A DNA stretch of 64,000 nt from NCBI GenBank assembly GCA_021325025.1, contig JAJPHZ010000013.1:164895-228894 (forward strand). The letters are read 5' to 3'. Shown one piece after another: positions 4,385 to 20,671 of this stretch. Each line of letters begins with the position of its first letter. Position 1 is the stretch's first letter. Both the position numbers and the translations under genes were made by a program. The stretch comes from Pseudomonadota bacterium (GTDB taxonomy: Bacteria > Desulfobacterota > Binatia > Binatales > Binataceae). Below the pieces are notes generated by a model that did not search any database, was not told the origin of the DNA, and was given only the letters and a program-made list of their open reading frames with translations.

Positions 4385-5167
4385 ATGGCAGAGGGTAAAG
4401 CAAGACGAATGTGGGCACTGCCGGGAGCGGTATTCGTCGTGCCGCAATCGGCCCTGATGGCGGGCGGGAGCAACGACATTATCGAGGTCCCGGTGCCCTC
4501 CTTTTTGATCGAGCATCCCAAGGGACTGGTGCTGTTCGACACCGGCAGCCATCCCCGAGTTGCCGAGGACGTGGCCGCTTACTGGGGCGAGATGTTCCGT
4601 AACATGGTGCGCTTCAGCAAGGATCTCACCGTCGACAATCAGATCAAGGCGCTGGGCTACAAGGTCACCGACGTCAAGTACGTCGTGATGTCGCATCTGC
4701 ACATGGACCACACCGGCGGCCTGTTCATGTTCCCCCACGCCCGGCTGCTGACGATGAGGGGCGAGCTAAGCTACGCCTACTGGCCCGCACCCGACCGGCG
4801 CAACATCTTCCTGATCGACGACCTGCTGCCCACGCGCAACTACCAGTGGATGGAGTTGGAGGGAGAGTTCGACATGTTCGGCGACGGCAGCCTCACCTTG
4901 CTCCATACGCCCGGCCATACGCCGGGCAGCACGTCGCTGGTGGTGCGCCTGCCGCATCAGAATATCGTGCTGGCCGGTGACGTCGTACACATGCGCGACG
5001 CGCTGGACACCGAGCACACGATGTCGGTGGACACCGACCCGCAGCAGGCGGTGGCGTCGATCCGCCGGCTCAAGGCGATGCGCGACATGCAGGGCATGCG
5101 CATCTGGGTCAGCCACGATCCCAACGATTGGGCCGAGATGGGTCCGGCGCCGCGCGTGATCGAATAG
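4385..5167 (+). CDS. MBL-fold hydrolase, N-acyl-homoserine lactonase-like
   Basis: SHLHMDHTGG (HxHxDH), HTPGHTPGS, LAGDVVH; in-frame ATG at 4385. Confidence 0.75.
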   Translation: MAEGKARRMWALPGAVFVVPQSALMAGGSNDIIEVPVPSFLIEHPKGLVLFDTGSHPRVAEDVAAYWGEMFRNMVRFSKDLTVDNQIKALGYKVTDVKYVVMSHLHMDHTGGLFMFPHARLLTMRGELSYAYWPAPDRRNIFLIDDLLPTRNYQWMELEGEFDMFGDGSLTLLHTPGHTPGSTSLVVRLPHQNIVLAGDVVHMRDALDTEHTMSVDTDPQQAVASIRRLKAMRDMQGMRIWVSHDPNDWAEMGPAPRVIE

Positions 5168-5170
5168 CGG

Positions 5171-6364
5171 TCAATTGATCCTGGGCAGTCCCAGCACGCG
5201 CTGTGCAATGATGTTGCGCTGGATCTCGGAAGTGCCGGCGTAGATGGTGTCCGAGCGCGACCACAAAAACGTGTACTGCCACAGGCCGTCGCGAATCGCG
5301 TAGGGCGACTCGCGGACCAATTGGCTGGCCGGGCCCTGCAGTTCCATCGCGAACTCCTGCATGCGCTGATTGAACTCCGACCAGTGCAGCTTGAGGATTG
5401 AGCCCTCCGCGCCCGGCGTGCCGCCCTTGAGAATTTTGGAGAAGGCGCGATAGGAGGAGTACTTCATCTCCTGCAAATCGATGTAGAGCTGCGCCAGGCG
5501 GTCGCGCACGATCGGGTCCTCGACGGCCGGCCCGCCCGCGCGCCGCGTGGCGCGCGCCAATTCCACCAGCTCATCTAAGGTACGCTGGAAGCGCAGCATC
5601 ACGGCCAGCGTGGTGGTGCCGCGCTCATTGGTCAGGGTGGTCGTCGCCACGCGCCATCCCTCGTTGATCGGACCGAGCAGGTTTTGGCGCGGGATGCGCA
5701 CGTTGTCGAGAAACACTTCGCAAAATTCCATGCTGCCCGGCATCTGACGCAGGGGCCTGGGGTTGACGCCGGGGGTTTTCATGTCCACCAGCAGGTAGCT
5801 GATGCCGCGATGCTTGGGGGCGTCGGGGTCGGTGCGCGCCAGCAGGATGCCCCAGTCAGCGTAATGGGCAAACGAACTCCACACTTTCTGGCCGTTGACG
5901 ATGAACTCATCGCCGCGCAGTTCGGCGCGGGTGCGCAGCGAGGCCAAATCGGAGCCGGCGTTGGGTTCGGAGAACAGTTGACACCAGATTTCCTCGGCCG
6001 TCAGGATCTTGGACAGAAAGCGTTTTTTTTGTGCTTCGGTGCCATGCATGATCAGGGTCGGACCCACCAGATTCATGCCCACGGGATTGAGCGGGGAGGG
6101 CGCGCGAAAGCGCGCCATCTCCTCGTTGAAAATCGCCTGCTCGACCTGACTGGCGCCCTGGCCGCCATACTCGCGCGGCCACGCCATCCCGATAAAGCCC
6201 GCCTCATACAGCCGCCGGTGCCAATCGCGCAGGAACTCCGTGCGCGGCGTATCTCCAAGCTGGCGCATCCCTTCCTGGCGCAGACGCTGGGGCATGTTGG
6301 CCTGGAGAAAGGCACGTACCCGTTGCCTGAACCGTTCTTCCTCCGGCGTAAAACTGAAGTCCAT
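5171..6364 (-). CDS. Acyl-CoA dehydrogenase family protein
   Basis: MDFSFTPEEERFRQRVRAFL; CQLFSEPNAGSDLASLRTRA; C-terminal YAGTSEIQRNIIAQRVLGLPR. Confidence 0.95.
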   Translation of the reverse strand: MDFSFTPEEERFRQRVRAFLQANMPQRLRQEGMRQLGDTPRTEFLRDWHRRLYEAGFIGMAWPREYGGQGASQVEQAIFNEEMARFRAPSPLNPVGMNLVGPTLIMHGTEAQKKRFLSKILTAEEIWCQLFSEPNAGSDLASLRTRAELRGDEFIVNGQKVWSSFAHYADWGILLARTDPDAPKHRGISYLLVDMKTPGVNPRPLRQMPGSMEFCEVFLDNVRIPRQNLLGPINEGWRVATTTLTNERGTTTLAVMLRFQRTLDELVELARATRRAGGPAVEDPIVRDRLAQLYIDLQEMKYSSYRAFSKILKGGTPGAEGSILKLHWSEFNQRMQEFAMELQGPASQLVRESPYAIRDGLWQYTFLWSRSDTIYAGTSEIQRNIIAQRVLGLPRIN

Positions 6365-6421
6365 CAAAGATTCCTCTGTTGCGTCACGCGTCCAGCCTGG
6401 GAGCGAGCAGCCATCTTATAG

Positions 6422-6442
6422 ATGCGCGCGAGTGGCGCGCAT
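6422..6442. promoter_or_regulatory. Perfect inverted repeat ATGCGCGC-gagtg-GCGCGCAT between divergent acyl-CoA dehydrogenase genes; candidate operator
   Basis: 8-bp perfect arms around a 5-nt spacer in the divergent intergenic region; no experimental support. Confidence 0.4.
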
Positions 6443-6527
6443 TTGTCAAGGCAGGACGGATTTGACATGGGCGGCGGCTTGTTTAAACCTCGATTGTCGA
6501 ACGTGCGTTCGGCACACGGAGATCGGC

Positions 6528-7718
6528 ATGGACTTCGACTTCACCCCGGAACAGGAAGCATTTCGCATGGAGTTGCGCACCTGGCTGGAGGCCAACGTGC
6601 CCGAGGACCTCAAGGCCAATGCCGCCGACATGGTGCCCTCCAGTTGGGAGGAATTTGAAAAGCGCCGGGCGTTTCAGAAAAAGCTGGCGGCGGCGCGCTG
6701 GATCGGCATCTGGTGGCCGCGCGAATACGGCGGGCGCGGCGCCGGGATAATCGAGCAGGCCATCTACGACGAGGAATACGAGCGCGCGCACGCGCCACGC
6801 ATGACCAATCATCCGCCGATCAACCAATGGGGTCCGACGGTCATCCATTGGGGCACCGAGGCGCAGAAAAAACGGCTGCTGGCGCCGATGCTCAGCGGCG
6901 AGGAAACCTGGTGCCAGGGTTATTCGGAACCCAACGCGGGCTCCGACCTCGCCTCCTTGCAGACCCGCGCGGTCGACAAGGGCGACTACTTCGAGGTGAC
7001 CGGGCAGAAGATCTGGACTTCAGCGGGCCATTTCGCCGACTGGATCTACATGCTGGTGCGCACCGATCCCGCCGCGCCCAAGCACAAGGGCATTAGCTGC
7101 ATGTACGTTGACATGCACAGTCCGGGCGTGGAAGTGCGGCCGCTGATCGAAATCACCGGCGCGCATCATTTCAACGAGGTCTTCTTCGACGCCGTGCGCG
7201 TGCCCAAGGAAAACCTGGTCGGACCGCTGCACGAAGGATGGCGGGTGGCGATGACCACGCTCAACTACGAACGCGCCATCTCCGGCGGCCACAACCATGC
7301 CTCCCAGCTCAACCACCTGATCGAGCTGGCAAAAAAGGTGACCGTCAACGGGCATCCGGCCAGCGAGGATGACTACTTTCGCCAGCAGATTGCCCAACTC
7401 AAGATCGAGTTGGAATCGCTCAAGTACACCGGCTATCGCGCGCTGACGCGCCAGATCAAGGGGCAGCCGGCCGGTCCGGAGCTGTCGATGCTCAAGACGG
7501 TGGGATGCAACCTGGTGCTCAACATGATGCGGGTGGCGACCGAGATGCTGGGCGGCTTCGGCACCTTGGCGGGCCTGACGCCCAATCCTTCCATACCCGA
7601 TGCGCGCGAGTGGCTGCATCGGGTGCTGGGCGTGCGCGGCGTGACGATCGCCGGCGGCACAACCGAGATTTCGCGCAACATCATCGGCGAGCGCACTCTG
7701 GGCCTGCCCAAGAGCTGA
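6528..7718 (+). CDS. Acyl-CoA dehydrogenase family protein
   Basis: MDFDFTPEQEAFRMELRTWLEANVP; CQGYSEPNAGSDLASLQTRA; IAGGTTEISRNIIGERTLGLPK; ATG at 6528. Confidence 0.95.
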   Translation: MDFDFTPEQEAFRMELRTWLEANVPEDLKANAADMVPSSWEEFEKRRAFQKKLAAARWIGIWWPREYGGRGAGIIEQAIYDEEYERAHAPRMTNHPPINQWGPTVIHWGTEAQKKRLLAPMLSGEETWCQGYSEPNAGSDLASLQTRAVDKGDYFEVTGQKIWTSAGHFADWIYMLVRTDPAAPKHKGISCMYVDMHSPGVEVRPLIEITGAHHFNEVFFDAVRVPKENLVGPLHEGWRVAMTTLNYERAISGGHNHASQLNHLIELAKKVTVNGHPASEDDYFRQQIAQLKIELESLKYTGYRALTRQIKGQPAGPELSMLKTVGCNLVLNMMRVATEMLGGFGTLAGLTPNPSIPDAREWLHRVLGVRGVTIAGGTTEISRNIIGERTLGLPKS

Positions 7719-7742: not shown

Positions 7743-8495
7743 TCAATGCCGCAGTGCGCGGTCCTGGATGATCAGCGAGCGCAGGTCGCTGCGCTTGAAC
7801 AGCCCCTCGACACTGCGCGTAAACGCCACCGACAGCACCTCGCCCGGCTCGTCGTAGATGCTGGCCGTGTCCTCGGGTATCAGGCCCGGATTGTCGGGCG
7901 GATCGCTGTAGGTCTCGCTGCTGATCCCTTGCCAGAACGGGACATGGAAGGGCGGCTTGTAGATGGTCGCATCGAGCGCGAACTCGGCCACCGTCTGCCA
8001 GCTCCCGTTTCTGTCGTTGTCGATCACGCGCTGCTTGCGCACCCAGCATTTGACGATTTTGCTTTGCAGCACGTAGTCAGCATCCACCGGCTGGGGGATG
8101 TAGGTGCTCTCGGCTGAGGTTGAGGCGATCATCCCCGCTTCCTGCACCGCCTGCTCCAGCGCCTTTTGGACCGTCGTCGCCATGTCGGTTACATACAGGC
8201 GCTGAATCTTCGCGCCGCTGGCATCCAGCGTCACGCCGATCTGCTGGCCCGGCGTGGAGTCCTGCGGCGAGGACGCGCCGTTGTTGGCGCACGCGTCGGT
8301 TACCGCCAGCACCAGCATCCGCCGCGGCGGGTAGGAATGCTCAAAGCCTTTGACCAGCCCCGGATAAAAAGCCAAGGTCTGATTTGAAGCAGCCTCCATC
8401 GGCGAGGTCGAACTGACCGTCGAGCAGCCTGCCAACGCTGCGATGGTGAGCGCCATCAGCAAACAGCGGCCGACACGGCCCGCGGGCTGCACCAA
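7743..8495 (-). CDS. Putative lipoprotein at distal end of kinase/FHA locus
   Basis: Signal peptide with lipobox (LMALTIAALAGCS); 7-bp gap to the upstream FHA gene. Confidence 0.7.
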   Translation of the reverse strand: MVQPAGRVGRCLLMALTIAALAGCSTVSSTSPMEAASNQTLAFYPGLVKGFEHSYPPRRMLVLAVTDACANNGASSPQDSTPGQQIGVTLDASGAKIQRLYVTDMATTVQKALEQAVQEAGMIASTSAESTYIPQPVDADYVLQSKIVKCWVRKQRVIDNDRNGSWQTVAEFALDATIYKPPFHVPFWQGISSETYSDPPDNPGLIPEDTASIYDEPGEVLSVAFTRSVEGLFKRSDLRSLIIQDRALRH

Positions 8496-8501
8496 ATCCT
8501 C

Positions 8502-9380
8502 CTAGCTGCCGGATGTCTGGGTCCGTTCGCGAAACAGAAACAAGGTTGCACCCACCTCGATTCGGTCGCCGCTCTTGAGCGCCTGGCGGCCGTTGACCGG
8601 TACCCGATTGACGCTGACCGCGCCGCCTCCGGTGGGGCTCAGGAAGAAGTTCTTGCCCTCGCGCCGGATGATCGCATGCTGGGGGAGGATCGACTGATCG
8701 CCAAACAACCCGACGTCGCTTTCCTCCGCTCTGCCGATCACCGTGACCGGCTTGACCAGGGCGTATTCGCGCCCTTCGCGGGCGTTGCGGCTGCCGCTGC
8801 GCACCACCATCAGCGAGCCCTGCTTGAGCAGTTCGGTCACCAGTCCGATGAAGAAACCGATCAGGGCGCCCAGGATGATGATCGCGATGGCGCGGCCCAG
8901 GGTCTGGGGAAAAGTCAGAGTCAGCAGTTGATAGACCAGGCCGCCCAGCGCCCCGCCCAGAATTCCGCCCAACGCGCCGTTGCGCTGGCGGGCGGTGGAG
9001 CGCGACGCGGTGCCCACGCCCAGACCGACCGCGATGCCCAGGATCGCCCATCCCACGACACGGCCGTACAGACCGCTGAGGATGTCGAAGCTCAGCTCTC
9101 CTACTACCAGGCCAACCGCACCGCCGATGGCGCCGATAACGCCGCCGCTGCGCACGCCGCGCAAAGCCTGGCGCCATTGACCGACGCTCATGGCTTCAAT
9201 GGCGGCCAGAAAGGCGCCGATAAACAGCCCGATCAGGGCGCCCAGCACCGCATCGCGCAGATAAACGAAACGGATGCCCAGGAAGGCTTCCGCCGCGCCC
9301 CAGGCTGCGAGTCCCCCCAGCCCGCCGGCCACGGCATAAAACACCAGTTTTTCGCGTGATACGTTAATCGCCATCGTCAA
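8502..9380 (-). CDS. Membrane protein with glycine-rich transmembrane region and C-terminal FHA domain
   Basis: Multiple GGxxGxxxG hydrophobic segments, then VTVIGRAEESDVGLFGDQSILPQHAIIRREGKNFFLSPTGGGAVSVN. Confidence 0.8.
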   Translation of the reverse strand: MTMAINVSREKLVFYAVAGGLGGLAAWGAAEAFLGIRFVYLRDAVLGALIGLFIGAFLAAIEAMSVGQWRQALRGVRSGGVIGAIGGAVGLVVGELSFDILSGLYGRVVGWAILGIAVGLGVGTASRSTARQRNGALGGILGGALGGLVYQLLTLTFPQTLGRAIAIIILGALIGFFIGLVTELLKQGSLMVVRSGSRNAREGREYALVKPVTVIGRAEESDVGLFGDQSILPQHAIIRREGKNFFLSPTGGGAVSVNRVPVNGRQALKSGDRIEVGATLFLFRERTQTSGS

Positions 9381-9470
9381 GACATCGCCGGCGCCTGCCC
9401 GGGCGGCCGACCGCCGGCATCAGTTCCAGAATGACAGGATGACCAACCGGTGCCTAAACGGCAAGGGTTC

Positions 9471-11828
9471 TCAGTCCACCCGCGCGTTCCAATTGCCCCG
9501 ATCCGAAGGCGGGTCGGACTGAAAGCTGCCGCTCATCCCTTCGCCGCGCCGCTGCCCCTCGAAGTAAAGCACCCGCCCGCCGTATGGGACCTGGAACTCG
9601 ATATGGTTGCCGCGGATGAAACCGTCGATCGGGGTTAGTCCGTAGCCAGCCGCGTGAATCACCAGTTCGCCGTGCAGGAATCCATTGGGCTGTGGACGCA
9701 GGCGCAACTCGATCGGAATATTGTCGCGCCCGGCCAGACCGTCAATCCGGCCGCTGGCCACGGTCGGCGAATCCAGCGGTATGGTTGCGCCTCCTGAGGA
9801 CGCCGAGCCGGGCGAGGGCGGCAGCCCGATACCGGGACTGAGGCTGGCAGTGGTCGACACGATCCGGAACTGGCGCTGCGCGAGGTACTGGCCGTTGAGG
9901 TAGAAGTTGACGGTGTAGACCCCGGGCAAAAACGCATTGCCCGAGGAGTTGCCGATGCGGCCGCTGAAGGTTGCGGTCTTGGCATTTTCCGACACCGTGC
10001 GAAAATCATCGACGCTGCCCAGCGTGTGTCCGTCCGGCGCCACATAGGCCGCGTCCACGCGGTACTGATTCATCTCCAGGCCGTAGAGCCGGTTTTTGAA
10101 AGTTGCTTCCCACCCCACGAACAGCACTTTGGACGCGTCGAAGGTCTGCGCGGAGCGCGACAGCGGCGCGCCGCTCTTGGTCGTGTTGCGAAACACGATC
10201 GACTGCAACTCCAGCGGCCGGCGCCGTGCCTCTTCGATTCGCGCCAGACGCTCGTCGGCGGCCTTGCGCTCCGCCGCCGCCGCCCTGGCGCGGGCCGCCG
10301 CCGCTGCCTCCTCGGCCTTGGCCTTGAGCTTGGCGGCGACATCTTCCTTGACTGAGAACTGCTGTTCGGCCAGCAACTGATTGTCAGCGTAGATGCCCAC
10401 CTTGTAGTTGCCCAGCGGATGGTCACTGAGGTTGGGAATCAGCGCTACACCGCTGAAGTCAACTTTCTTCTCACCAGGCCCCACAAAACGCTGCGCGCTG
10501 CTGGCGGCGATCTGCAGGCCGTTGGGATCGAAAAACTTCGCCTCGACCTTCTGGCTGCGCCCCTCCAGTCCCGCCAGTTCGTTCTTAAAGCTCGCCACCC
10601 ACGACAGGTATTGGTTGGCGGCAAGCTCGGTATTGAGGAACGTGGCCTTGGGCGGGCCCACCGGCGCTCCCGCGCGCGTGGAAAGCTGCAGGGTCATGCG
10701 CTGGAACTCCAACGGATGCTCGCGCGCCTTCTCGATCAGCTCCTGATGTTTCCAGGGCAGCGAGTCGACAAAGGCTTTGAGGCCGAGTTGCTGCTGAACC
10801 TCCGGATGCGTGTAGAGATAGGTTGCACCAAACGCCCCCGAACCCACCAGCGCGACGAACACCACAAATCCAACCGCACGCCGCAAACCGCTGCGCCGTC
10901 GCCGGGCCGGACGCGCCGCGGGCGCTGTCGTCATCACCCGGGTCAAATCCGCGGTGCCGGTCCTGGGGCCGACCGTGGCGGGCGCCGCCTCCAGCCCCAC
11001 ACCGTAGAGCATCATGTCGAGGAATTCGCCCACGCTTTGCGGCCGCCCCTCGACCTTATAGCTGAGCGCCCGATCGATCGCGCCGGCCAGGTTGGCCGAG
11101 ATTCCCGGGCGCAGCGATGCGATGGGCGGAAAGCTGAAGGGCGGGAACTTCTCCGGGTCGCGTCCGCTCAGGATATAATGCAGCGTGGCGCCCAGCGAAT
11201 AGATGTCGGAGCGCGGGTCGACCTGACCCTGATATTGCTCGGGCGGAGCGAACCCCAACGTGCCGATCATGGTGCCCTTGCTCGCCACCTTGAACAGCCG
11301 CGCGATGCCGAAATCGATCAGCATCACCTTGCCCCGCGGCGTGAGCATCACGTTGGAGGGCTTCATGTCGCGGTAGACGATGGGCGGGGTGAAGGAATGC
11401 AGGTAGCCCAGCACCTCACACAACTGGCGCGCGATATCGATCACCACGCCTTCGTCCAGCGGACGCCCCAGCGCGGCCATCTCCTCTTCGAGGTTGCGCC
11501 CTTCGACGTATTCCATCACCAGGTAATGGCGATTGGCGTGGTCGAAGCGGTCGCTGATGGCGGGGATGGCGGGATGGCGTAGTTGAGCCAGCGTGTCGGC
11601 TTCGCGGAAGAAGTATTCGTTGGCCTCGCGCCGCTGCTGCGGGTCGATAAAGTGATCGACCATCTCCTTGATCGCGCACGGCCGATTGGCCAGACGCTGG
11701 TCGCGCGCCAGGTAGACCACGCCCATGCCGCCGCCGCCGATCAGCTTTTGAATCAGGTATCGATTTTGAAGCAGTGTGCCGGGAGCAAGCGGTTGGGTTC
11801 CCGCGGCGGCCTGTGCGGTATCAGCCAT
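9471..11828 (-). CDS. Transmembrane Ser/Thr protein kinase with duplicated extracytoplasmic domain
   Basis: LIGGGGMGVVYLARD, CAIKEM, IVYRDMKPSNVMLTPRGKVMLIDFGIARLF; hydrophobic TM segment; two related repeats and a further C-terminal domain. Confidence 0.93.
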   Translation of the reverse strand: MADTAQAAAGTQPLAPGTLLQNRYLIQKLIGGGGMGVVYLARDQRLANRPCAIKEMVDHFIDPQQRREANEYFFREADTLAQLRHPAIPAISDRFDHANRHYLVMEYVEGRNLEEEMAALGRPLDEGVVIDIARQLCEVLGYLHSFTPPIVYRDMKPSNVMLTPRGKVMLIDFGIARLFKVASKGTMIGTLGFAPPEQYQGQVDPRSDIYSLGATLHYILSGRDPEKFPPFSFPPIASLRPGISANLAGAIDRALSYKVEGRPQSVGEFLDMMLYGVGLEAAPATVGPRTGTADLTRVMTTAPAARPARRRRSGLRRAVGFVVFVALVGSGAFGATYLYTHPEVQQQLGLKAFVDSLPWKHQELIEKAREHPLEFQRMTLQLSTRAGAPVGPPKATFLNTELAANQYLSWVASFKNELAGLEGRSQKVEAKFFDPNGLQIAASSAQRFVGPGEKKVDFSGVALIPNLSDHPLGNYKVGIYADNQLLAEQQFSVKEDVAAKLKAKAEEAAAAARARAAAAERKAADERLARIEEARRRPLELQSIVFRNTTKSGAPLSRSAQTFDASKVLFVGWEATFKNRLYGLEMNQYRVDAAYVAPDGHTLGSVDDFRTVSENAKTATFSGRIGNSSGNAFLPGVYTVNFYLNGQYLAQRQFRIVSTTASLSPGIGLPPSPGSASSGGATIPLDSPTVASGRIDGLAGRDNIPIELRLRPQPNGFLHGELVIHAAGYGLTPIDGFIRGNHIEFQVPYGGRVLYFEGQRRGEGMSGSFQSDPPSDRGNWNARVD

Positions 11829-11831
11829 GGG

Positions 11832-13919
11832 TTATTGGGCGTCGATGACGATAACTGAAATATTGTCCGTGCCACCTCCGGCATTCGCCGCCACCACCAA
11901 CTCCCGGGTCGCCTCGAAGGGATCCTCGCGGCGCGCCAGGATCTCCGCGATTGCGGAATCCTCCACGTGAGCCATCAGTCCGTCGCTGCATAGCAGCAGG
12001 CGGTCTCCCCGTTTGAGCCGAATCGTCAGCGCTTCGGCGCCCGCCGGGCCGTTGGCGCGCGCTCCCAGCGACCGGGTGATCACGTTTTTGTGCTCGTGAT
12101 GGCGCGCTTCCGCGGCGGTGATTTGACCGATATCGACCAGGCGCTGGACCAGTGAATGGTCCTTGGTGAGTTGGCGCAGCCGGCCGTCTTCCCATAAATA
12201 GGCGCGGCTGTCGCCCACCCAGGCGATCGCAGCCTCGGGGGGGCAAACCAACGCCGTCACCGCCGTTGCGCCCATGCCGCGGGCCTCCGGATGATTGGCC
12301 TGGTAAGCGACAATGTCACGATTGGCCTGTTCGAGTGCCGCGCGCAGCAGTTCTTCAAGCGCTGCGGTGGGCGCTGGGCCAGACGTGTCGCCAGAAGTTT
12401 CAGGCTGCGATTGGATCCCCGCACTGACACTGACCCCACGACGGTTCATCCCATTTCCAACATAATCCCGTATAGTCTCAACGGCAATCGCGCTGGCCGT
12501 CTCACCCGCCTCGGCTCCGCCCATCCCGTCCGACACCACGTACAGGTAGCGGCGCGCGGGCGCGACCTGGCAGTCCTGCTCCACCTCCAGCGCCATCACT
12601 GAGTCCTCGTTGTGCTCCCGCACCATCCCGACGTCGGTCATGCACGCGGCCCGGATCCGCAACTGCGCGTTGAGCCGCAGCAATTCGGCCTTGAACGCAT
12701 CGCTGCCCGGCCATCGGTCCGCCGGCCTGAAAGCCAGCGCGCGACGCACCGCCTTTTCCAGATCGGGTGAGACGACATGCGGCGGATAGAAGCGGATCGG
12801 CCCCGCCTCTTCGCGCCAGGTCTCGCATTCGATCCGCTCGCCGGTCAGGCAGGTGTAGAGGACGCAGCCTACGGAGAACACATCGGCACGCTTGTCGACC
12901 TGGCGGGCGCGATAGATTTCGGGCGCGGTGTAACCGTCATTGAGGATGGGGTCGGCCTGCAATTCGTTGTCGTTGCTGATGTAATCCAGGCTGGTCAGCT
13001 TGACGCGTCCGTCCGCTCCATACGCCAGCGAGGCCGGGCATATATCATTGACCCGCATGCCGCGATTGTGCAGGTAGGATACTGCCTGACAGAGCTGGAT
13101 GGCGGCACTCAACGCCTGATGCTCAGCCATCGCGCCAGCGCCGCCCTGCCGCGGCGCGAACGGCCGCAGCTGTTCGTCGGGATAGACCAGGTAGACGCGC
13201 CCGTCCCCAGCAAATCCCTCCACAGCGCGATAGTAGGCCGGATGCGTAATCGTCTGCGACAGCGCCAGGACGCGCTCGAACACCTCCCCAAGATCGGCGC
13301 GTTGGGGCGCTGACGGGGCCGGCGCCTGCTCGGTCTGGCCGTCGAGCGATTCGCCGGCGGCTTGCGCGCGCTGAGTTTCTTCCAGCGATGACTCTGACGT
13401 TTGCTCCGTGCCGGCCGCCTGAGCGCCATTGGCCGGTGCCTGCTGAGTTGACGCAACGGGCTCCGCTGCCGGTTCGGGCTCGGCCTTCAACTCCACCAAT
13501 GCGCCGCTGTCTGCCCCAGAGCCGCCGCCCGACGCTTGCGGACCGGGCGGCTCGTCGGCCAACGCGGCTTTGGCCAACGGCGCAAGGTCTCGGGTCTTGG
13601 CGTTGGGCCCCGCCGGATCCTCGGCAACGGCAGCTTCGGGCGCCGGTTCCTGCATCGGCACGCTTGGTGTGGGGGCGATGCGCTCGCGCAGCACGAAGCG
13701 CCGATTGGGGTCGTCGAGTGCAGCCGCACGATAACGGTTTTCCTGCGAGCTCTGGCTGATTACCTCGACGATCCTAAAGCGCTCTTGCAATTGCGTGCCC
13801 ACCGCCAGCGGCGGCAACGCCACTACCGGCGGTGGCAGGTCGTGCAGACCGCGACCGCATTGTTCGCAAAACCGCGCCTCATCGGGGGCCGTTTGGCCGC
13901 AATCCGGACATGTGATCAT
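11832..13919 (-). CDS. Zinc-ribbon / degenerate kinase / PP2C phosphatase fusion
   Basis: N-terminal CPDCGQTAPDEARFCEQCG; kinase-like RVNDICPASLAYGADGRVKLTSLDYISND; C-terminal PP2C motifs TDVGMVREHNEDS, VVSDGMGGAEAGE, WVGDSRAYLW, GGTDNISVIVI. Confidence 0.88.
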   Translation of the reverse strand: MITCPDCGQTAPDEARFCEQCGRGLHDLPPPVVALPPLAVGTQLQERFRIVEVISQSSQENRYRAAALDDPNRRFVLRERIAPTPSVPMQEPAPEAAVAEDPAGPNAKTRDLAPLAKAALADEPPGPQASGGGSGADSGALVELKAEPEPAAEPVASTQQAPANGAQAAGTEQTSESSLEETQRAQAAGESLDGQTEQAPAPSAPQRADLGEVFERVLALSQTITHPAYYRAVEGFAGDGRVYLVYPDEQLRPFAPRQGGAGAMAEHQALSAAIQLCQAVSYLHNRGMRVNDICPASLAYGADGRVKLTSLDYISNDNELQADPILNDGYTAPEIYRARQVDKRADVFSVGCVLYTCLTGERIECETWREEAGPIRFYPPHVVSPDLEKAVRRALAFRPADRWPGSDAFKAELLRLNAQLRIRAACMTDVGMVREHNEDSVMALEVEQDCQVAPARRYLYVVSDGMGGAEAGETASAIAVETIRDYVGNGMNRRGVSVSAGIQSQPETSGDTSGPAPTAALEELLRAALEQANRDIVAYQANHPEARGMGATAVTALVCPPEAAIAWVGDSRAYLWEDGRLRQLTKDHSLVQRLVDIGQITAAEARHHEHKNVITRSLGARANGPAGAEALTIRLKRGDRLLLCSDGLMAHVEDSAIAEILARREDPFEATRELVVAANAGGGTDNISVIVIDAQ

Positions 13920-13925
13920 AGTGGC

Positions 13926-15356
13926 TTAGCCTTTTCGGAACTCCAGCGTTGCCCCCCCGATCACGACCTGCGAGCGATCTTCCAATTTGTAGAGTTGATC
14001 GCGGCCCAGACGGCCCTGACCCAGGATGAAGGTGCCGTTAAGGCTGCCAAGGTCGCGGATATAGTAATCGTCGCCCCGTTTGATTATTTCCGCATGCCGG
14101 CGCGAGACCCGGTCGGCGCCGATTCGCAGTACGCCCAGGTCGATATCCACGCCGTCGGTGGGTCCGGTATGGCGGCCGATAATCGCCCTGACGCCGGCCA
14201 CGTTGAAGCGCAATGGTTCGGTCTTGCATACCAGACTGGCGGTTGGGACCGGTGCCGGCGCACGCTCGTCACGCTCGGTGGGCTGACTGGTGCGAGCTGG
14301 GGTATCCGCAGCACGTGGCTGAGCGGACGGCGTTGCGGGGCGCGGTGCGGCGGGGACCGGCTTCAGCTTGCCTTTGAGGTCGGCGGTCTTGGCCGTCGGG
14401 GAAACTCCGTAATCGATGATCGGCGCGGGCGCCACCGGCTTTGGCGCCGCGGCCGGTGCCGGTTTAGTCAGCACCTGGGTCCGCATCGTGGATAACGACG
14501 GATCGCCGCCCGCTATCGAGGGTGCGCTCACAGATCCTTCGTCGCCGGCGGGAACCGGCATTGCCTCAAGCATCGCCGCCGCCGACGCGGGCCGCTTGTC
14601 GGCTTCCTTTTCCAGCGCCCACATCACAACGCGCTCGGTTTCCGCCGATACCTCCGGGGCAAGCTGCCTGACGGGCGGAAAGCTGAAGGGCGGTTCAAGC
14701 TGCGGATCGCGTCCGGTCAGCAGATGATGCATCGTGGCGCCCAGCGAATAGAGGTCCGAGCGCGGCTCCAGCTTGCCCAGATACTGCTCGGGTGGGGCAT
14801 AGCCGACCGAGCCGATTTGAGTGCCGCGTCCGCCCGGCGGCAGGAAGCGCGCGATGCCGAAATCGATGATCATCGCGCGCCCGTGCTGATCGATCATGAT
14901 GTTGCCGGGCTTCAGGTCACGGTACACAATCGGCGGCTGCTGCGAATGCAGAAAGGACAGCACGTCGAGGATCTGGCGCGCCCAGCGCAGCACCTGCGCT
15001 TCGGGGAAACGCGCACCGGGGCCGCGCTGATCGAGTAATCCCTGCAGGTCACCGCCGGCGATGAATTCCATCACCAGGTAATGGCGGCCGCGCTCGGCAA
15101 AATAGTCGATCAGGTTGGGGATGCCGGGATGGGACAGCGGGGCCAGTACCCGCGCCTCGCGCGCGAAGTCCTCCACCGCCTTCTGCTCCTGCAAGCCCTG
15201 CCCGACCATCATCTCCTTGACTGCCACCGGACGGTTGGCCAGCCGCGTGTCGTTGGCCAGATACACCCGTCCCATGCCGCCGACCCCAATTACCTTGGCG
15301 ATTCGGTAGCGGCCATCGAGCAGGTGACCGGTTGCAAGGGGCTCGCCGGCGTTCAT
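13926..15356 (-). CDS. Ser/Thr protein kinase with C-terminal FHA domain
   Basis: IGVGGMGRVYLAND, VAVKEM, IVYRDLKPGNIMIDQHGRAMIIDFGIARFL; FHA motifs GRHTG..., VSRRHAEII, DLGSLNGTFI. Confidence 0.94.
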   Translation of the reverse strand: MNAGEPLATGHLLDGRYRIAKVIGVGGMGRVYLANDTRLANRPVAVKEMMVGQGLQEQKAVEDFAREARVLAPLSHPGIPNLIDYFAERGRHYLVMEFIAGGDLQGLLDQRGPGARFPEAQVLRWARQILDVLSFLHSQQPPIVYRDLKPGNIMIDQHGRAMIIDFGIARFLPPGGRGTQIGSVGYAPPEQYLGKLEPRSDLYSLGATMHHLLTGRDPQLEPPFSFPPVRQLAPEVSAETERVVMWALEKEADKRPASAAAMLEAMPVPAGDEGSVSAPSIAGGDPSLSTMRTQVLTKPAPAAAPKPVAPAPIIDYGVSPTAKTADLKGKLKPVPAAPRPATPSAQPRAADTPARTSQPTERDERAPAPVPTASLVCKTEPLRFNVAGVRAIIGRHTGPTDGVDIDLGVLRIGADRVSRRHAEIIKRGDDYYIRDLGSLNGTFILGQGRLGRDQLYKLEDRSQVVIGGATLEFRKG

Positions 15357-15421
15357 TGTCTACTTCCTGTCAAAATGGGCCGGGAGGCTGCTGGCGCAAG
15401 CCGAGCCCGCAGTCGCACATT

Positions 15422-16051
15422 TCAGGAGACGGGCTCGATAATCACCTTGAAGAACGTCTTGCCGATAATAATTTCGTCGCCGTCCTTGAGTTCGTACGGC
15501 GTACCCACCGCCAGCCGCGGCTGGCGGTTGACATAGGTGCCGTTGAGGCTGCCGATATCCTCGATGGTGATCTTGTCGCCGTCCAAGCGGATCAAGGCGT
15601 GCTTGCGTGAGATCTTGGCTTCGGGATCGTCTGCTTCCAGGTCAACTTCCGGAAATGCTCCGGTCTCCGGATCCCAGCGGCCTACCAGGTTGTTGCCGGG
15701 CTCCAGCGGAAATTCGTGTCCCACGCGTCCACCACGCACCAGTTTGAGCTTGGCCTTAAACGTCGGCGGTGCGGCTGCTGGTGCGGCCGCCGGCGCAGGC
15801 TGCTCGGCGGGGGCAGGCTCGGCTGCAGCGGGCTCGGCCGCCGGCGCTGACGCCGCCGCTGCGGTTTCTGCCGCTGCCGGCGCCTGCTCGGGCGCTGCGC
15901 CCGGCGAAATCGCTGCGGTAGGCGCTTCCGGCGAAACCGCCGGTTGCGCCGCCTCCGCGGGCGCCGCCGCCTGATCAAGCTTGGCCCCGCAGCTATCGCA
16001 GTAGTCCAGCCCGTCCATGTTTTCGTAGCCGCATTCGTTGCACTTAATCAT
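15422..16051 (-). CDS. Zinc-ribbon and FHA domain protein with Ala/Pro-rich linker
   Basis: IKCNECGYENMDGLDYCDSCGAKL; then Ala/Pro/Glu-rich linker; then NLVGRWDPETG...ISRKHALIRLDGDKITIEDIGSLNGTYVN. Confidence 0.9.
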   Translation of the reverse strand: MIKCNECGYENMDGLDYCDSCGAKLDQAAAPAEAAQPAVSPEAPTAAISPGAAPEQAPAAAETAAAASAPAAEPAAAEPAPAEQPAPAAAPAAAPPTFKAKLKLVRGGRVGHEFPLEPGNNLVGRWDPETGAFPEVDLEADDPEAKISRKHALIRLDGDKITIEDIGSLNGTYVNRQPRLAVGTPYELKDGDEIIIGKTFFKVIIEPVS

Positions 16052-16125
16052 TTTGTCTCCAAGCCTCTTCCCCGGTTAGACGGCCCACTGCGCTCGTCCG
16101 CAACTCGGTAAAATTACAATTCCTG

Positions 16126-17412
16126 TCATTGTTGCTGCTTGAGTTCTTCCAGCATCTTGGGATCGAGCATCTGGGTCTTGCGCACCACCGCCTGCGCGTT
16201 GAGCAAAGTGGTTTTGGCCGCCTTGCCCTGTAGGCTCTGGGTCTGCTGGATCTGATCCATCAGCCCGGTCAGCGCCTGCGTGGCCTTGACGTTGCCCAGG
16301 CGCTGGGTGCCCTGGATGGCGTTGCTCAGCAGGCGCGTCGCGCGGTCGACGTTGCCGGCCTTGAGTTCTTCCTCGGCCTTGGCTTGCAGCTTGGCAATTG
16401 AAACCTGGTCGACCAGGTTCATCACCCGGCCGTTGACTTTGCTGGTCAGCGCCCGATCCAGCGAATAGTCGATGGTGACGTCAGCCGCGACCGATTGTTC
16501 GTCGGAGCCGGGCACCTGGTAGTGAAAACTGGTTTGCGCGATGCGCACTGCGCCGGGCTTGCGCGGTGGCAGCACCAAGGTGACCAGCACCGAGGCGGGA
16601 ACCCCGGCCTCCAGGTCGCCGACCTGGTAGCTGATACGCCGATCCGCCCCCACCAGCGGCTCTCCCAAGGGATAGATTTCAGGGCTGGCGCGGAAGGCTT
16701 CGCGGATCTGCACGCCTTGCGACAGGACCAGGTCGATGCGTCCGTTGCGCACCGAAACCGCTCTGAGCCCGGTCAATTCGTCTTCGAAGATCGACGGGAT
16801 TTCAGTGGAATCGCCGATAAAGTGATACTTGCCGCCGGAGTCCTGCGCGATACGCATCAGCAGCTTTTCATTGAACTCGACTCCCACCCCCATCGCCGAG
16901 AACTGGATGTCGGGGTTCTGGCGCACCAGGTCCACGCACGCCATCTCCTCGTAGGTCTGGCCGTCGGTCAGCACCAGCACGCGGTTGAGCCGCTGGGGCG
17001 CGAAATTCTTGCGCACCTCGTCGATCGCCGCGCGCATTCCCAATGCCATCTGGGTGCCGCCGCCGATTTCCAGCAGGTCGATGTCGTCGATCGCACGCTT
17101 GGTGCCGGCCTTGTCGATGGCGGCGCCCGAGGTCAACACCTGCGCTTTGTCGGCGAAGGCCACGATCGCCACTTTGTCGTCGGGATTGAGATTGTCGACC
17201 AGGAATTTGACGGCTTCGACCACGAATTCCAGGCGCCGTTCATCGTACATCGAACCCGAGCGGTCGAGCACGACGCCCAGGTTAAGCGGCAGACGTGCGC
17301 CGGCGCCGCCCTGCGCGATCGCTTCGAGCAGCACGTAGAGCACGAAATTCTCCGCGCTGGACAAGACATGCTCGCGGCTGGGCAATGCCTGGAAAGTCAG
17401 CGGTTGGGCCAT
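16126..17412 (-). CDS. von Willebrand factor A domain protein
   Basis: VVLDRSGSM (MIDAS), GGGTQMALGM, VLVLTDGQTYEE. Confidence 0.92.
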   Translation of the reverse strand: MAQPLTFQALPSREHVLSSAENFVLYVLLEAIAQGGAGARLPLNLGVVLDRSGSMYDERRLEFVVEAVKFLVDNLNPDDKVAIVAFADKAQVLTSGAAIDKAGTKRAIDDIDLLEIGGGTQMALGMRAAIDEVRKNFAPQRLNRVLVLTDGQTYEEMACVDLVRQNPDIQFSAMGVGVEFNEKLLMRIAQDSGGKYHFIGDSTEIPSIFEDELTGLRAVSVRNGRIDLVLSQGVQIREAFRASPEIYPLGEPLVGADRRISYQVGDLEAGVPASVLVTLVLPPRKPGAVRIAQTSFHYQVPGSDEQSVAADVTIDYSLDRALTSKVNGRVMNLVDQVSIAKLQAKAEEELKAGNVDRATRLLSNAIQGTQRLGNVKATQALTGLMDQIQQTQSLQGKAAKTTLLNAQAVVRKTQMLDPKMLEELKQQQ

Positions 17413-17738: not shown

Positions 17739-18905
17739 ATGAGTCTGCGCGGCAAGACCGCGATCGCGGGACTGGGTATCACTAAAATGGGCAAAAACTA
17801 CGCCCATTCCAATGCGCTCGGCTTCGCCACCGAAGCCCTTGAGCTGGCGCTGGCCGACGCCGGCCTGCTGCGCTCGGACCTCGACGGCGTGCTGGTCAAT
17901 CCCGGTCTGACCTGGGGCAGCGACGTGATGGCGTCGTACACCCTGCAACAGGCAATGGGGATCAGGAACGTACGGCTGACGGCCACCACCAACCTCGGTG
18001 GCGCCAGCGCCGCTGCGCTGGTGATGCACGCCGCGATGGCGATCGACGCCGGGATGGCGTCGACGGTGGCCTGCCTGTTTGCCGACGCGCCGCTCAAGCC
18101 GCCGCGGCCCAACGCCAAGGGAACCGGCGGCGGCGCGGCCTACGGTTTCGCCCGCGGTCTGGACGCGGCCTACGGCCTGTATGGCGCCAACTCCGGCTAC
18201 GCAATGGTCGCTCAGCGCCATATGCACGTGTACGGCACCACCAGCGACCAACTGGGCGCGATCGCGGTCGCCGAACGCAAATGGGCCAACCTCAACCCGA
18301 TGGCGGAGTTCCACCGGGAACCGCTCACCATCGAGGACTATCGCAACTCGCGATGGGTCGCCGAGCCGCTGCATCTGTACGACTGCTGTTTGGTCAGCAA
18401 CGGCGCGGTGTGTGTGATCGTCACCTCCGCTGAGCGTGCCCGCGACCTCAAAAAGCCCCCGGTCTACATCCTGGGCATGGGCCAGGGCCATCCCGGCGAC
18501 GATCCGGTGGAGACCCTCAGTTCGGGCGCGCCGATGGCCAAGCAGACCGCCTTTAAGATGGCGGGCGTGGAGCTTAAGGACATCGACGTAGTTGAGTTTT
18601 ACGACTGCTATACGATCACGGTCCTGATCACGCTGGAAGATTACGGCTTTTGTGCCAAAGGCGAAGGCGGTCCGTTCGTCGCCGACGGCCGCATCGGACC
18701 CGGCGGCAGCCTGCCGGTCAACACCGGCGGCGGTCAGCTCAGCGCCTACTACATGTGGGGAATGACGCCGCTGTCGGAGGGCGTCATCCAAATCCGCGGT
18801 GAGGGCGGCGCCCGCCAGGTGCCCAAGCATGACCTGTGCGTGGTGTCCGGCAACGGCGGCGTGTTGTGGACCCATTCCACGCTTGTATTAGGAGCGTCGG
18901 CCTGA
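17739..18905 (+). CDS. Thiolase-like / lipid-transfer acetyl-CoA acetyltransferase family protein
   Basis: MSLRGKTAIAGLGITKMG; DVVEFYDCYTITVLITLEDYGFC; followed by a DUF35 OB-fold partner. Confidence 0.85.
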   Translation: MSLRGKTAIAGLGITKMGKNYAHSNALGFATEALELALADAGLLRSDLDGVLVNPGLTWGSDVMASYTLQQAMGIRNVRLTATTNLGGASAAALVMHAAMAIDAGMASTVACLFADAPLKPPRPNAKGTGGGAAYGFARGLDAAYGLYGANSGYAMVAQRHMHVYGTTSDQLGAIAVAERKWANLNPMAEFHREPLTIEDYRNSRWVAEPLHLYDCCLVSNGAVCVIVTSAERARDLKKPPVYILGMGQGHPGDDPVETLSSGAPMAKQTAFKMAGVELKDIDVVEFYDCYTITVLITLEDYGFCAKGEGGPFVADGRIGPGGSLPVNTGGGQLSAYYMWGMTPLSEGVIQIRGEGGARQVPKHDLCVVSGNGGVLWTHSTLVLGASA

Positions 18906-18932: not shown

Positions 18933-19352
18933 ATGGCAGAGATAGTCAGACCCATACCGGAAATCACGCCCGAACTGCGCCCCTTTTTTGAAGCCAGCAA
19001 GAACGGGCAACTGGTCGTGCAAAAGTGCAACGGCTGCGGCGCCCTCCGCTTTCCGCCGCGCCGCCTGTGCGCCAACTGCCTGTCGCGCGAGTCCTCATGG
19101 ACCCCGGTCAGCGGCGAGGGCGAGGTCTACAGCTTCATCATCATGCATCGCGTCTACCATCCTGCCTTCGCCACCCAGGTTCCCTACGCGGTGGCGACCA
19201 TCAAGCTCAAGGAAGGGGTGCGGATGCTGTCCAACGTAATCGGAATCGACCCGCACGCGATCAGATGCGGAATGCCGGTCAGGGTTTGCTTCGAAAAGCT
19301 AAACGACGAGGTCAACCTGCCGATGTTCCGTCCAGCCGCCGACGCTGCTTGA
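18933..19352 (+). CDS. Zn-ribbon OB-fold (DUF35) acyl-CoA-associated protein
   Basis: QKCNGCGALRFPPRRLCANCLSRESSWTPVSGEGEVYSFIIMHR. Confidence 0.92.
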   Translation: MAEIVRPIPEITPELRPFFEASKNGQLVVQKCNGCGALRFPPRRLCANCLSRESSWTPVSGEGEVYSFIIMHRVYHPAFATQVPYAVATIKLKEGVRMLSNVIGIDPHAIRCGMPVRVCFEKLNDEVNLPMFRPAADAA

Positions 19353-19459: not shown

Positions 19460-20671
19460 ATGCATTTCCTGGACCCCAAATACCTCAACCGCCTGGTCGA
19501 GACCTCCCCCGATATAATCGTCGCCGTCGATATCAAGGGCACGATCGTCTATTACAATGACGGTGCGCGGCGCGGTCTGCAGTTCACGGCTGAGGAAATC
19601 ATCGGCCAGAACGTAACCCGGCTCTATCCCAGTATCGAAGAGGCACGCCGCGTGATGGCGGCGATGCGCAGTTCGAGGGACAGCGGGCGCATTTCCAACT
19701 TCGAGTCCACTTTCCGCAACAAGGACAACGAGTTGATTCCGGTGGCGATCTCGGCGTCGCTGATTTATGACGACAACAACCAGGAGATCGGCTCGATTGG
19801 CTTTGCGCGCGACATCCGCGGGATGCGCCGGCGCGAGCAACTGGCCACCGCTGGCGAAATCGCGATCAGCCTGGCCCATGAGATCAACAACCCGCTCGAA
19901 GTAATCGTCAACAACCTCGAACTGCTGGCGCGCGACGTCGAGGCCAAGCTGAGCGACGCCGAACTGGTGGTCGAAAGCGAACGGCTGGACTCGATCCGCA
20001 GCGGGGTGGAACGGGTGCAGGCGATCGTGCGGCGGCTGGACGAGATGGCCCGCAAGGGTACCTACGAGACGCGCGATTACCTGCAGGGCAAGCGGATGGC
20101 CGACTTGGCGCCGCGGGCCGCCGAAGCGCTGCGCGAGCATGAGCCCGCTCCGGCGCGCGATTGGCCGCTGACCGGGATGTCGGTGCTGGTGCTCGACGAC
20201 GATCCGGGGGTGGTCAACTCGCTGGCCGACCTGCTGCGCGCCGAGCGCTGCGTGGTACACACCGCGATGCGTCCGAGCAAGGCGCTGGCGCTGCTGCGCA
20301 ACATGAAGGTCGACGCGGTTATCTCGGACGTCGTGATGCCGGAGATGGACGGCTACGAGTTCTATCTGCAGGTCAAGGAGGAGTGGCCCAACCTGCCGGT
20401 GATCCTGATGACCGCCTACTACTACGACAAGGATCACATCATCAAGCGCAGCCGGTTGCGTGGATTGGAAGGCGCGTTGTTCAAAAAGCCGATCAATCCG
20501 GCCAAGCTGCGTCAGGTGTTGTTGCAATGCCGCAACAAGACCGTCCAGCCGCATAAAGGCCCGGTTGCGGTACCGCACGACGGCGCCGAAGCTTCCTCCG
20601 CCCAAGTTCCGGTCGCGCCTGCCCCCTTGGCCGCCGCCCCCTCCGAACCCGCCCGCCCCTCGCGCCCTTAA
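19460..20671 (+). CDS. PAS - HisKA - receiver protein without visible HATPase_c domain
   Basis: PAS (LVETSPDIIVAVDIKGTIVYYNDGARRGLQFTAEEIIGQN); H-box IAISLAHEINNPLEVIVNNLELL; REC MSVLVLDDDPGVVNSL...VDAVISDVVMPEMDGYEF...FKKPI; no N/G1/F/G2 boxes between them. Confidence 0.85.
   Translation: MHFLDPKYLNRLVETSPDIIVAVDIKGTIVYYNDGARRGLQFTAEEIIGQNVTRLYPSIEEARRVMAAMRSSRDSGRISNFESTFRNKDNELIPVAISASLIYDDNNQEIGSIGFARDIRGMRRREQLATAGEIAISLAHEINNPLEVIVNNLELLARDVEAKLSDAELVVESERLDSIRSGVERVQAIVRRLDEMARKGTYETRDYLQGKRMADLAPRAAEALREHEPAPARDWPLTGMSVLVLDDDPGVVNSLADLLRAERCVVHTAMRPSKALALLRNMKVDAVISDVVMPEMDGYEFYLQVKEEWPNLPVILMTAYYYDKDHIIKRSRLRGLEGALFKKPINPAKLRQVLLQCRNKTVQPHKGPVAVPHDGAEASSAQVPVAPAPLAAAPSEPARPSRP

Follow-up and report, generated by a model that had tools for sequence, protein, structure and literature searches.

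An ArnAB-like phospho-threonine switch predicted from a conserved seven-gene operon of the Binataceae

Seven adjacent genes in a genome of the Binataceae raise the question of whether one bacterial operon encodes a complete threonine phosphorylation circuit, and which characterised system such a circuit resembles. The genes lie in a window of 64,000 nucleotides (the whole stretch of DNA that was analysed; contig JAJPHZ010000013.1, positions 164,895 to 228,894). A first-pass annotation had proposed a write/read/erase Ser/Thr circuit of seven same-strand genes, and the presence of such a circuit within one conserved operon is supported. Seven intact open reading frames, designated g1 to g7, occupy the minus strand from g1 at 17412 down to g7 at 7743, with ATG at 9374 as the most likely start of g6. 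The intergenic gaps are 74, 65, 6, 3, 96 and 6 bp in the order of the genes, a range of 3 to 96 bp that is close to the 4 to 91 bp given earlier. Domains were assigned by Pfam and NCBIfam scans and by reading of the sequence. With a probability of about two in three, the operon works as a self-contained phospho-threonine switch of ArnAB-like type, in which the input kinase spans the envelope; judged by sequence similarity, the archaeal ArnA-ArnB pair is its closest characterised match.

Gene g1 (16126 to 17412, minus strand) encodes an ArnB-like vWA protein of 428 amino acids (Pfam VWA_3/VWA_2), consisting of the vWA domain, a flanking sandwich region, a C-terminal helical region and a Thr tail. 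It is a separate protein without a transmembrane segment or signal peptide. The best PDB match of g1 was the ArnB chain 8s05_A of the ArnA-ArnB complex (E 2e-12, residues 46 to 392). Gene g2 (15422 to 16051, minus strand) encodes an ArnA-like zinc-ribbon-FHA protein of 209 amino acids (FHA, Pfam 58.7 bits), the predicted reader, which matched ArnA best from the zinc ribbon through the FHA domain (5a8i, E 4e-15, residues 3 to 175; also 8s05_C). With 55 bits, below the cut-off of 200, g2 did not qualify as NCBIfam OdhI (GarA/OdhI). Residue conservation was determined from alignments of 21 to 31 relatives, most of them probably metagenome-assembled genomes whose sequences are not independent. The phospho-site of the g2 FHA domain (GR, SRxH, NG) was invariant in 31/31. 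Gene g1 was conserved in 31/31, and its metal ion-dependent adhesion site (MIDAS; D50-S52-S54/T120/D150), expected to be intact from the first reading of the locus, was invariant.

In Sulfolobus, ArnC phosphorylates several threonines in the C-terminal helical region of ArnB, T353, T363 and T375 first (PMC12852372). The FHA domain of ArnA then binds phospho-ArnB. Without phosphorylation, the complex is held together by the zinc ribbon, and the kinase is counteracted by PP2A (PMC12852372; PMC6509490). As in this archaellum repression module, the zinc-ribbon-FHA and vWA genes of the operon are adjacent, and the vWA C-terminal helical region carries several threonines with an aliphatic residue at +3 (T-x-x-I/M in ArnB, which has QTRRM/TTRRI/TTRRI/QTRKI in the aligned C-terminal region). 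The two systems differ in that Sulfolobus has PP2A as its phosphatase and ArnC and ArnD, the kinases, as separate members of the network, whereas the operon combines genes for two kinases, a pseudokinase-PP2C, a lipoprotein and a membrane FHA protein. FHA reading of phospho-Thr has been demonstrated by experiment in the archaeon (PMC6509490, PMC12852372) and is predicted for the operon. The Sulfolobus output is motility, which is not known as the output of the operon, and neither the operon nor the genes around it indicate one. ArnB-like architectures exist in bacteria, most of them regarded as outside multi-phosphorylation (PMC12852372). The openly searchable literature yielded neither a description of bacterial pairs of ArnB-like and FHA partner proteins nor a characterised system of identical architecture, the latter a check that the first-pass annotation had called for.

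The three-Thr tail of g1 (16174 to 16242, minus strand; invariant residues) is the predicted phospho-acceptor and FHA ligand. It contains the motifs Q/K-T391-Q-S-L, K-T401-T-L-L and R-K-T413-Q-M-L-D-P, about ten residues apart; T391, T401 and T413 and the +3 Leu of each were invariant in 31/31 family sequences. In the vWA proteins of distant modules in Deinococcus and cyanobacteria, K-T-x-x-[LIM] likewise occurs exactly three times, similarly spaced; the D. radiodurans protein DRA0331 has K-T-I-S-L, K-T-L-K-I and K-T-Q-T-L. The vWA protein of a distant genome, G122, has the motifs G-T-K-K-L and G-T-R-K-L. At least two Thr motifs were present in 9/9 vWA proteins with an FHA neighbour versus 0/9 without one. 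The control set comprised nine vWA homologues from loci lacking an FHA gene, including MerR-vWA pairs of Deinococcus and cyanobacteria; of the outgroup vWA loci L069, L070 and L090, none of which is a module, L069 and L090 served as controls. Motif-present and motif-absent vWA proteins were both found within Deinococcus and within cyanobacteria.

A second Thr motif, T-x-[D/E]-[L/I/M], was found in the linkers of four other operon proteins: APT(G/A)(E/A)I at T45 of g2, AKT324ADL in g3, AKT109RDL in g4 and the juxtamembrane GT292ADL in g5. It was present in the linkers of 27/27 g3 sequences (shuffle mean 1.5), 25/28 g4 sequences (2.4), 17/27 g5 sequences (0.6) and 20/31 g2 sequences (0.4), and the linkers bearing it are variable, being 27 to 36% identical. 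A second family (f5), which is without g3, also lacks the g4 linker and has altered versions of the motifs in g2 and g5. This loss, in one lineage, hints that the T-x-[D/E]-[L/I] linkers belong to the g3 FHA domain. The residue at pT+3 contributes to FHA selectivity (PMC5549992).

The predicted writers are g3 and g5. Gene g3 (13926 to 15356, minus strand; 476 amino acids) encodes a Ser/Thr kinase with a C-terminal FHA domain (Pfam Pkinase 141 bits, FHA 49 bits) whose phospho-site is nearly invariant among relatives, and g5 (9471 to 11828, minus strand) encodes a membrane Ser/Thr kinase with an ectodomain (Pfam Pkinase 132 bits; transmembrane scan). In both, the catalytic Lys, YRD, Asn and DFG were invariant in 27 relatives, so the VAIK/HRD/DFG motifs reported earlier hold for Lys and DFG, with Y-R-D in place of H-R-D. 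Both kinase domains scored highest with PknB-type models of NCBIfam, and the domain scans found no C-terminal zinc ribbon on either kinase. The product of g4 (11832 to 13919, minus strand; 695 amino acids) combines a zinc ribbon, a pseudokinase and a PP2C domain, and passes the NF033484 Stp1_PP2C cut-off (232.4 versus 230 bits). Its kinase-like region is degenerate (K to R, HRD to xND, K to C, DFG to (G/S)LD) and lacks the kinase Lys, Asn and DFG Asp, and the PP2C metal-site motifs were invariant in 28 sequences. The first-pass annotation was right in calling g4 a pseudokinase-PP2C fusion and incomplete in that the zinc ribbon was left out. A degenerate kinase-like N-terminal region was also found in most distant PP2C homologues, the alignment being weak in parts.

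The remaining components are predicted to lie at the envelope. The g5 protein has a cytosolic kinase at about residues 1 to 275, a transmembrane segment at about 315 to 339 and an ectodomain at 350 to 785, in agreement with the kinase ectodomain that had been described. The ectodomain model (predicted local distance difference test, pLDDT, 79) consists of two Ig/FnIII-like sandwiches, a 40-residue helix linker and a less certain C-terminal beta domain. Foldseek ranked RbmA tandem FnIII proteins first, with low global TM-scores of about 0.2, and for this reason the domain type alone is claimed. Gene g6 (8502 to 9374, minus strand) encodes a protein with multiple transmembrane segments and a C-terminal degenerate FHA domain (38 bits; residue table), which keeps Arg, His and Asn. 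The Ser is absent in the window protein and its column is unconserved in relatives, making this FHA domain a doubtful phospho-Thr reader. Three FHA domains are present, as the first reading had it, with the phospho-site GR/SxxH/N(G) kept in two only. The terminal gene g7 (7743 to 8495, minus strand) does encode a lipoprotein, with an LAGC lipobox in its translation and no Pfam or NCBIfam family. Its model matched CsgG/FlgT/LptE/DUF330-like lipoprotein folds at low confidence (pLDDT 62; five models, 31 to 62), and the fold call is tentative because the model is weak. On these models, signal input from the envelope is plausible.

Relatives of the g1 vWA protein were found at 72 to 96% identity in most of 35 searched genomes of the same GTDB family and at about 60% identity in three genomes of f5. 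A scan of genome contigs yielded only five close relatives. All seven genes, with order and strand kept, were present in 20/21 family loci uncut by contig ends, g7 being the last gene in each of these 20. Conservation of gene order, which the first-pass annotation had left to be checked, is thus established, the sole exception (G010) being without g6 and g7. Of the seven genes, g1-g2-g4-g5-g6 are retained in the three f5 loci, where neither the kinase-FHA gene g3 nor the lipoprotein gene g7 is present. Judged from this gene content, the core is five genes (vWA, zinc-ribbon-FHA, pseudokinase-PP2C, kinase with transmembrane segment, transmembrane FHA), and g3 and g7 are family-level additions. 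The g1 and g2 genes were adjacent in every family and f5 locus examined. Observed directly are the genes and their fixed order, the intact residues of the catalytic and FHA sites, the conservation of the motifs and the co-occurrence of motif and FHA gene. A mobile defence island is disfavoured, the operon being a stable, near-universal vertical family trait, and the PADLOC matches were to generic kinase models, with no specific anti-phage system. Overall, the earlier interpretation stands in part: it overlooked the kinship with ArnA-ArnB, the vWA Thr tail as likely substrate, the five-gene core and the degeneration of one FHA domain.

Relatives of the core were also found in another class of the same phylum, with a strong match in 9/395 genomes sampled across the wider phylum, and in Cyanobacteriota and Deinococcota. 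Modules outside the phylum were drawn from a plasmid collection only. Distant modules are certainly under-sampled, as plasmid records and one phylum only were searched. In G122, a pseudokinase-PP2C, a vWA protein, a zinc-ribbon-FHA protein, a transmembrane-FHA-vWA-FHA fusion and a kinase are encoded side by side. The fusion, at 4779 to 7094 (plus strand) of locus L089, is a 771-amino-acid protein joining a g6-like multi-transmembrane FHA region, a vWA domain, a second FHA domain and a zinc ribbon. In G122 and in cyanobacteria, homologues of g6 form fusions with vWA domains, and from these sequences the role of g6 appears to be fused to vWA in other lineages. Clusters of the vWA/zinc-ribbon-FHA/PP2C type were found in plasmid records of cyanobacteria and Deinococcus; most include a kinase, and the full-length vWA identity in them was 24 to 28%.

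The Deinococcus radiodurans cluster (L101) was matched to the tags DRA0331-DRA0334 by content and order. Like the operon, it combines a vWA protein, a kinase, a Zn-finger-FHA protein and a PP2C, whereas it has four genes, with no membrane FHA gene and no lipoprotein. In an oxyR mutant, DRA0331 (vWA), DRA0333 (Zn-finger-FHA) and DRA0334 (PP2C) rose about fourfold together (PMC2225504), and the kinase DR_A0332 is listed as irradiation-sensitive (PMC10572868); both results suggest a function in stress signalling in D. radiodurans. No mechanism for DRA0331-DRA0334 was published in the literature found. The cyanobacterial plasmid clusters (Gloeothece, Trichormus, Nostoc, Tolypothrix) share with the operon a vWA protein with three Thr motifs, a zinc-ribbon-FHA protein, a PP2C with a long N-terminal region, a kinase that is mostly next and a g6-related vWA/transmembrane protein upstream. 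They differ in being plasmid-borne in the records found and in lying inside a longer gene run with ARC6/PARC6 and serine-hydrolase genes; in Gloeothece, the kinase bears tetratricopeptide repeats. A conserved set of genes (ARC6/PARC6 family, serine hydrolase, vWA) lies upstream of the cyanobacterial modules (L076, 1 to 8947; L077, 1 to 8943), and this set and the module possibly form a larger undescribed operon. At five other loci (L103, L104, L105, L107 and L108), a MerR-type regulator gene overlaps or abuts an ArnB-like vWA gene with no FHA gene present, a different recurring vWA pairing on Deinococcus and cyanobacterial plasmids.

In the proposed cycle, the periplasmic ectodomain would allow g5 to respond, assisted by the products of the envelope genes g6 and g7. 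Together with the soluble kinase g3, g5 would phosphorylate the Thr of the K/R-T-x-x-L motifs on the g1 C-terminal tail and also the T-x-[D/E]-[L/I] linker motifs of g2, g3, g4 and g5. Binding of the phospho-tail by the g2 FHA domain would convert a loose, zinc-ribbon-mediated g1-g2 complex to a tight one, while the g3 FHA domain would dock on phosphorylated linkers and concentrate the kinase. The PP2C of g4, placed by its own zinc ribbon and pseudokinase, would reset the sites. The output would be the state of g1-g2, acting on targets via the MIDAS or via freed zinc-ribbon surfaces. All phosphorylation, binding and reset events and the direction of signalling are predicted from homology and motifs.

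Several points weigh against this cycle. The similarity of g1 to ArnB is modest and comes mostly from the vWA domain, and the Catenulispora vWA protein 4fx5, which is not known to be phosphorylated, scored nearly as well as ArnB against g1, and better with a profile. Pfam ArnB_C was not reported in g1 at E <= 0.01. The ArnA match of g2 could be convergent, since zinc ribbons and FHA domains are both common. The sequence by itself assigns no kinase to a given site, the Deinococcus module is without membrane genes, and the sequences sampled for motifs and for co-occurrence have a common ancestry.

The alternative that survives best, although unlikely, is that the motifs of the vWA tail and of the linkers serve structure or protein binding and are unphosphorylated, the FHA domains reading other substrates. 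High conservation extends over the entire g1 C-terminus (77% pairwise), so that invariance of the tail is weak evidence when taken alone. However, the K-T-x-x-[LIM] triplet recurs in the distant vWA homologues in spite of their low identity and is absent where there is no FHA gene, and the Thr-centred motif is retained in four otherwise variable linkers, which argues against this alternative.

Less probable still, and equally so, are two further readings. In one, the operon would be a cell-wall growth regulator like PknB/FhaA/PstP, with the vWA protein incidental. This is consistent with the PknB-type kinases, the Stp1 type of the PP2C and the membrane FHA protein g6, but g5 has no PASTA match, its ectodomain is modelled as Ig/FnIII-like, neither RodA nor a penicillin-binding protein is among the products of the seven genes (Pfam), and the pattern of partners fits ArnA-ArnB better. 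In the other, it would control, by threonine phosphorylation, a machine for secretion or in the envelope, as PpkA-PppA-Fha does in the type VI secretion system (T6SS), in which the TagQRST envelope proteins offer a parallel. The ectodomain kinase, PP2C, FHA, vWA and lipoprotein genes recall the kinase, PP2C, FHA and vWA domains and envelope components of that system, where PpkA-Fha control has been described (PMC3953482), whereas the vWA protein of the operon is separate and soluble in layout. The operon has no secretion genes, nor do the annotated neighbours of the distant modules, and membership in the T6SS pathway was rejected because no VipA/TssB sheath gene was matched in the genome.

Least probable is a TerY-P-type triad of vWA, PP2C and kinase in an unusual setting, for stress response or phage defence: the enzyme classes are the same, such triads with zinc ribbons are described (PMC7159879; PMC11090510) and g1 gave a vWA-TerF-like Pfam match of 26 bits, but this is below the cut-off of 29.4, and membership was rejected on the lack of a TerY-family vWA in Pfam and NCBIfam, of a kinase zinc ribbon and of TerD across the genome, the last in line with the distinct composition claimed earlier, while FHA readers, vertical conservation unlike that of a mobile island and generic PADLOC matches also speak against it.

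Beyond the operon, a gene for a PAS-HisKA-REC protein without a HATPase domain (Pfam; 19460 to 20671, plus strand) is the divergent neighbour of g1, 0.3 to 2.4 kb away, in 24/30 loci and is absent in f5. This gene may belong to the system or have a promoter region in common with it. In the window, thiolase and DUF35/OB-fold-type genes (17739 to 18905 and 18933 to 19352, plus strand) separate it from g1. Acyl-CoA dehydrogenase genes lie past g7 (5171 to 7718), and the operon is set among acyl-CoA degradation genes. The same genome (G000) has two further kinase and PP2C neighbourhoods (C22:142346-143968 and C37:46525-48137), with totals of seven kinase, three PP2C and seven FHA matches. A promoter scan gave 4 weak sites versus 1.5 expected and terminators were below expectation, which provided nothing usable; no Rfam or tRNA features were found in the window.

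A broader proposal, for which the odds are about even, is that the ArnA-ArnB switch is a cross-domain module (vWA tail with triple T-x-x-L/I, zinc-ribbon-FHA reader, own kinase and PP2C) of at least three bacterial phyla, and that here the Thr motif has spread to the operon linkers as a local phospho-code. Each of the two motif classes may have a reader of its own, g2 for the K-T-x-x-L tail (both families) and the g3 FHA domain for the T-x-[D/E]-L/I linkers. For most bacterial Ser/Thr kinases no substrate or reader has been assigned, whereas here the kinase, predicted site, reader and eraser adjoin and the exact Thr residues are named. If the reading of the operon as an ArnAB-like switch is true, it would tie the archaeal motility switch to clusters of Deinococcus, cyanobacteria and soil bacteria that have so far gone undescribed. 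It would also open ArnAB mechanics to study in tractable bacteria, and the enzymes of the operon could clarify how the switch is reset.

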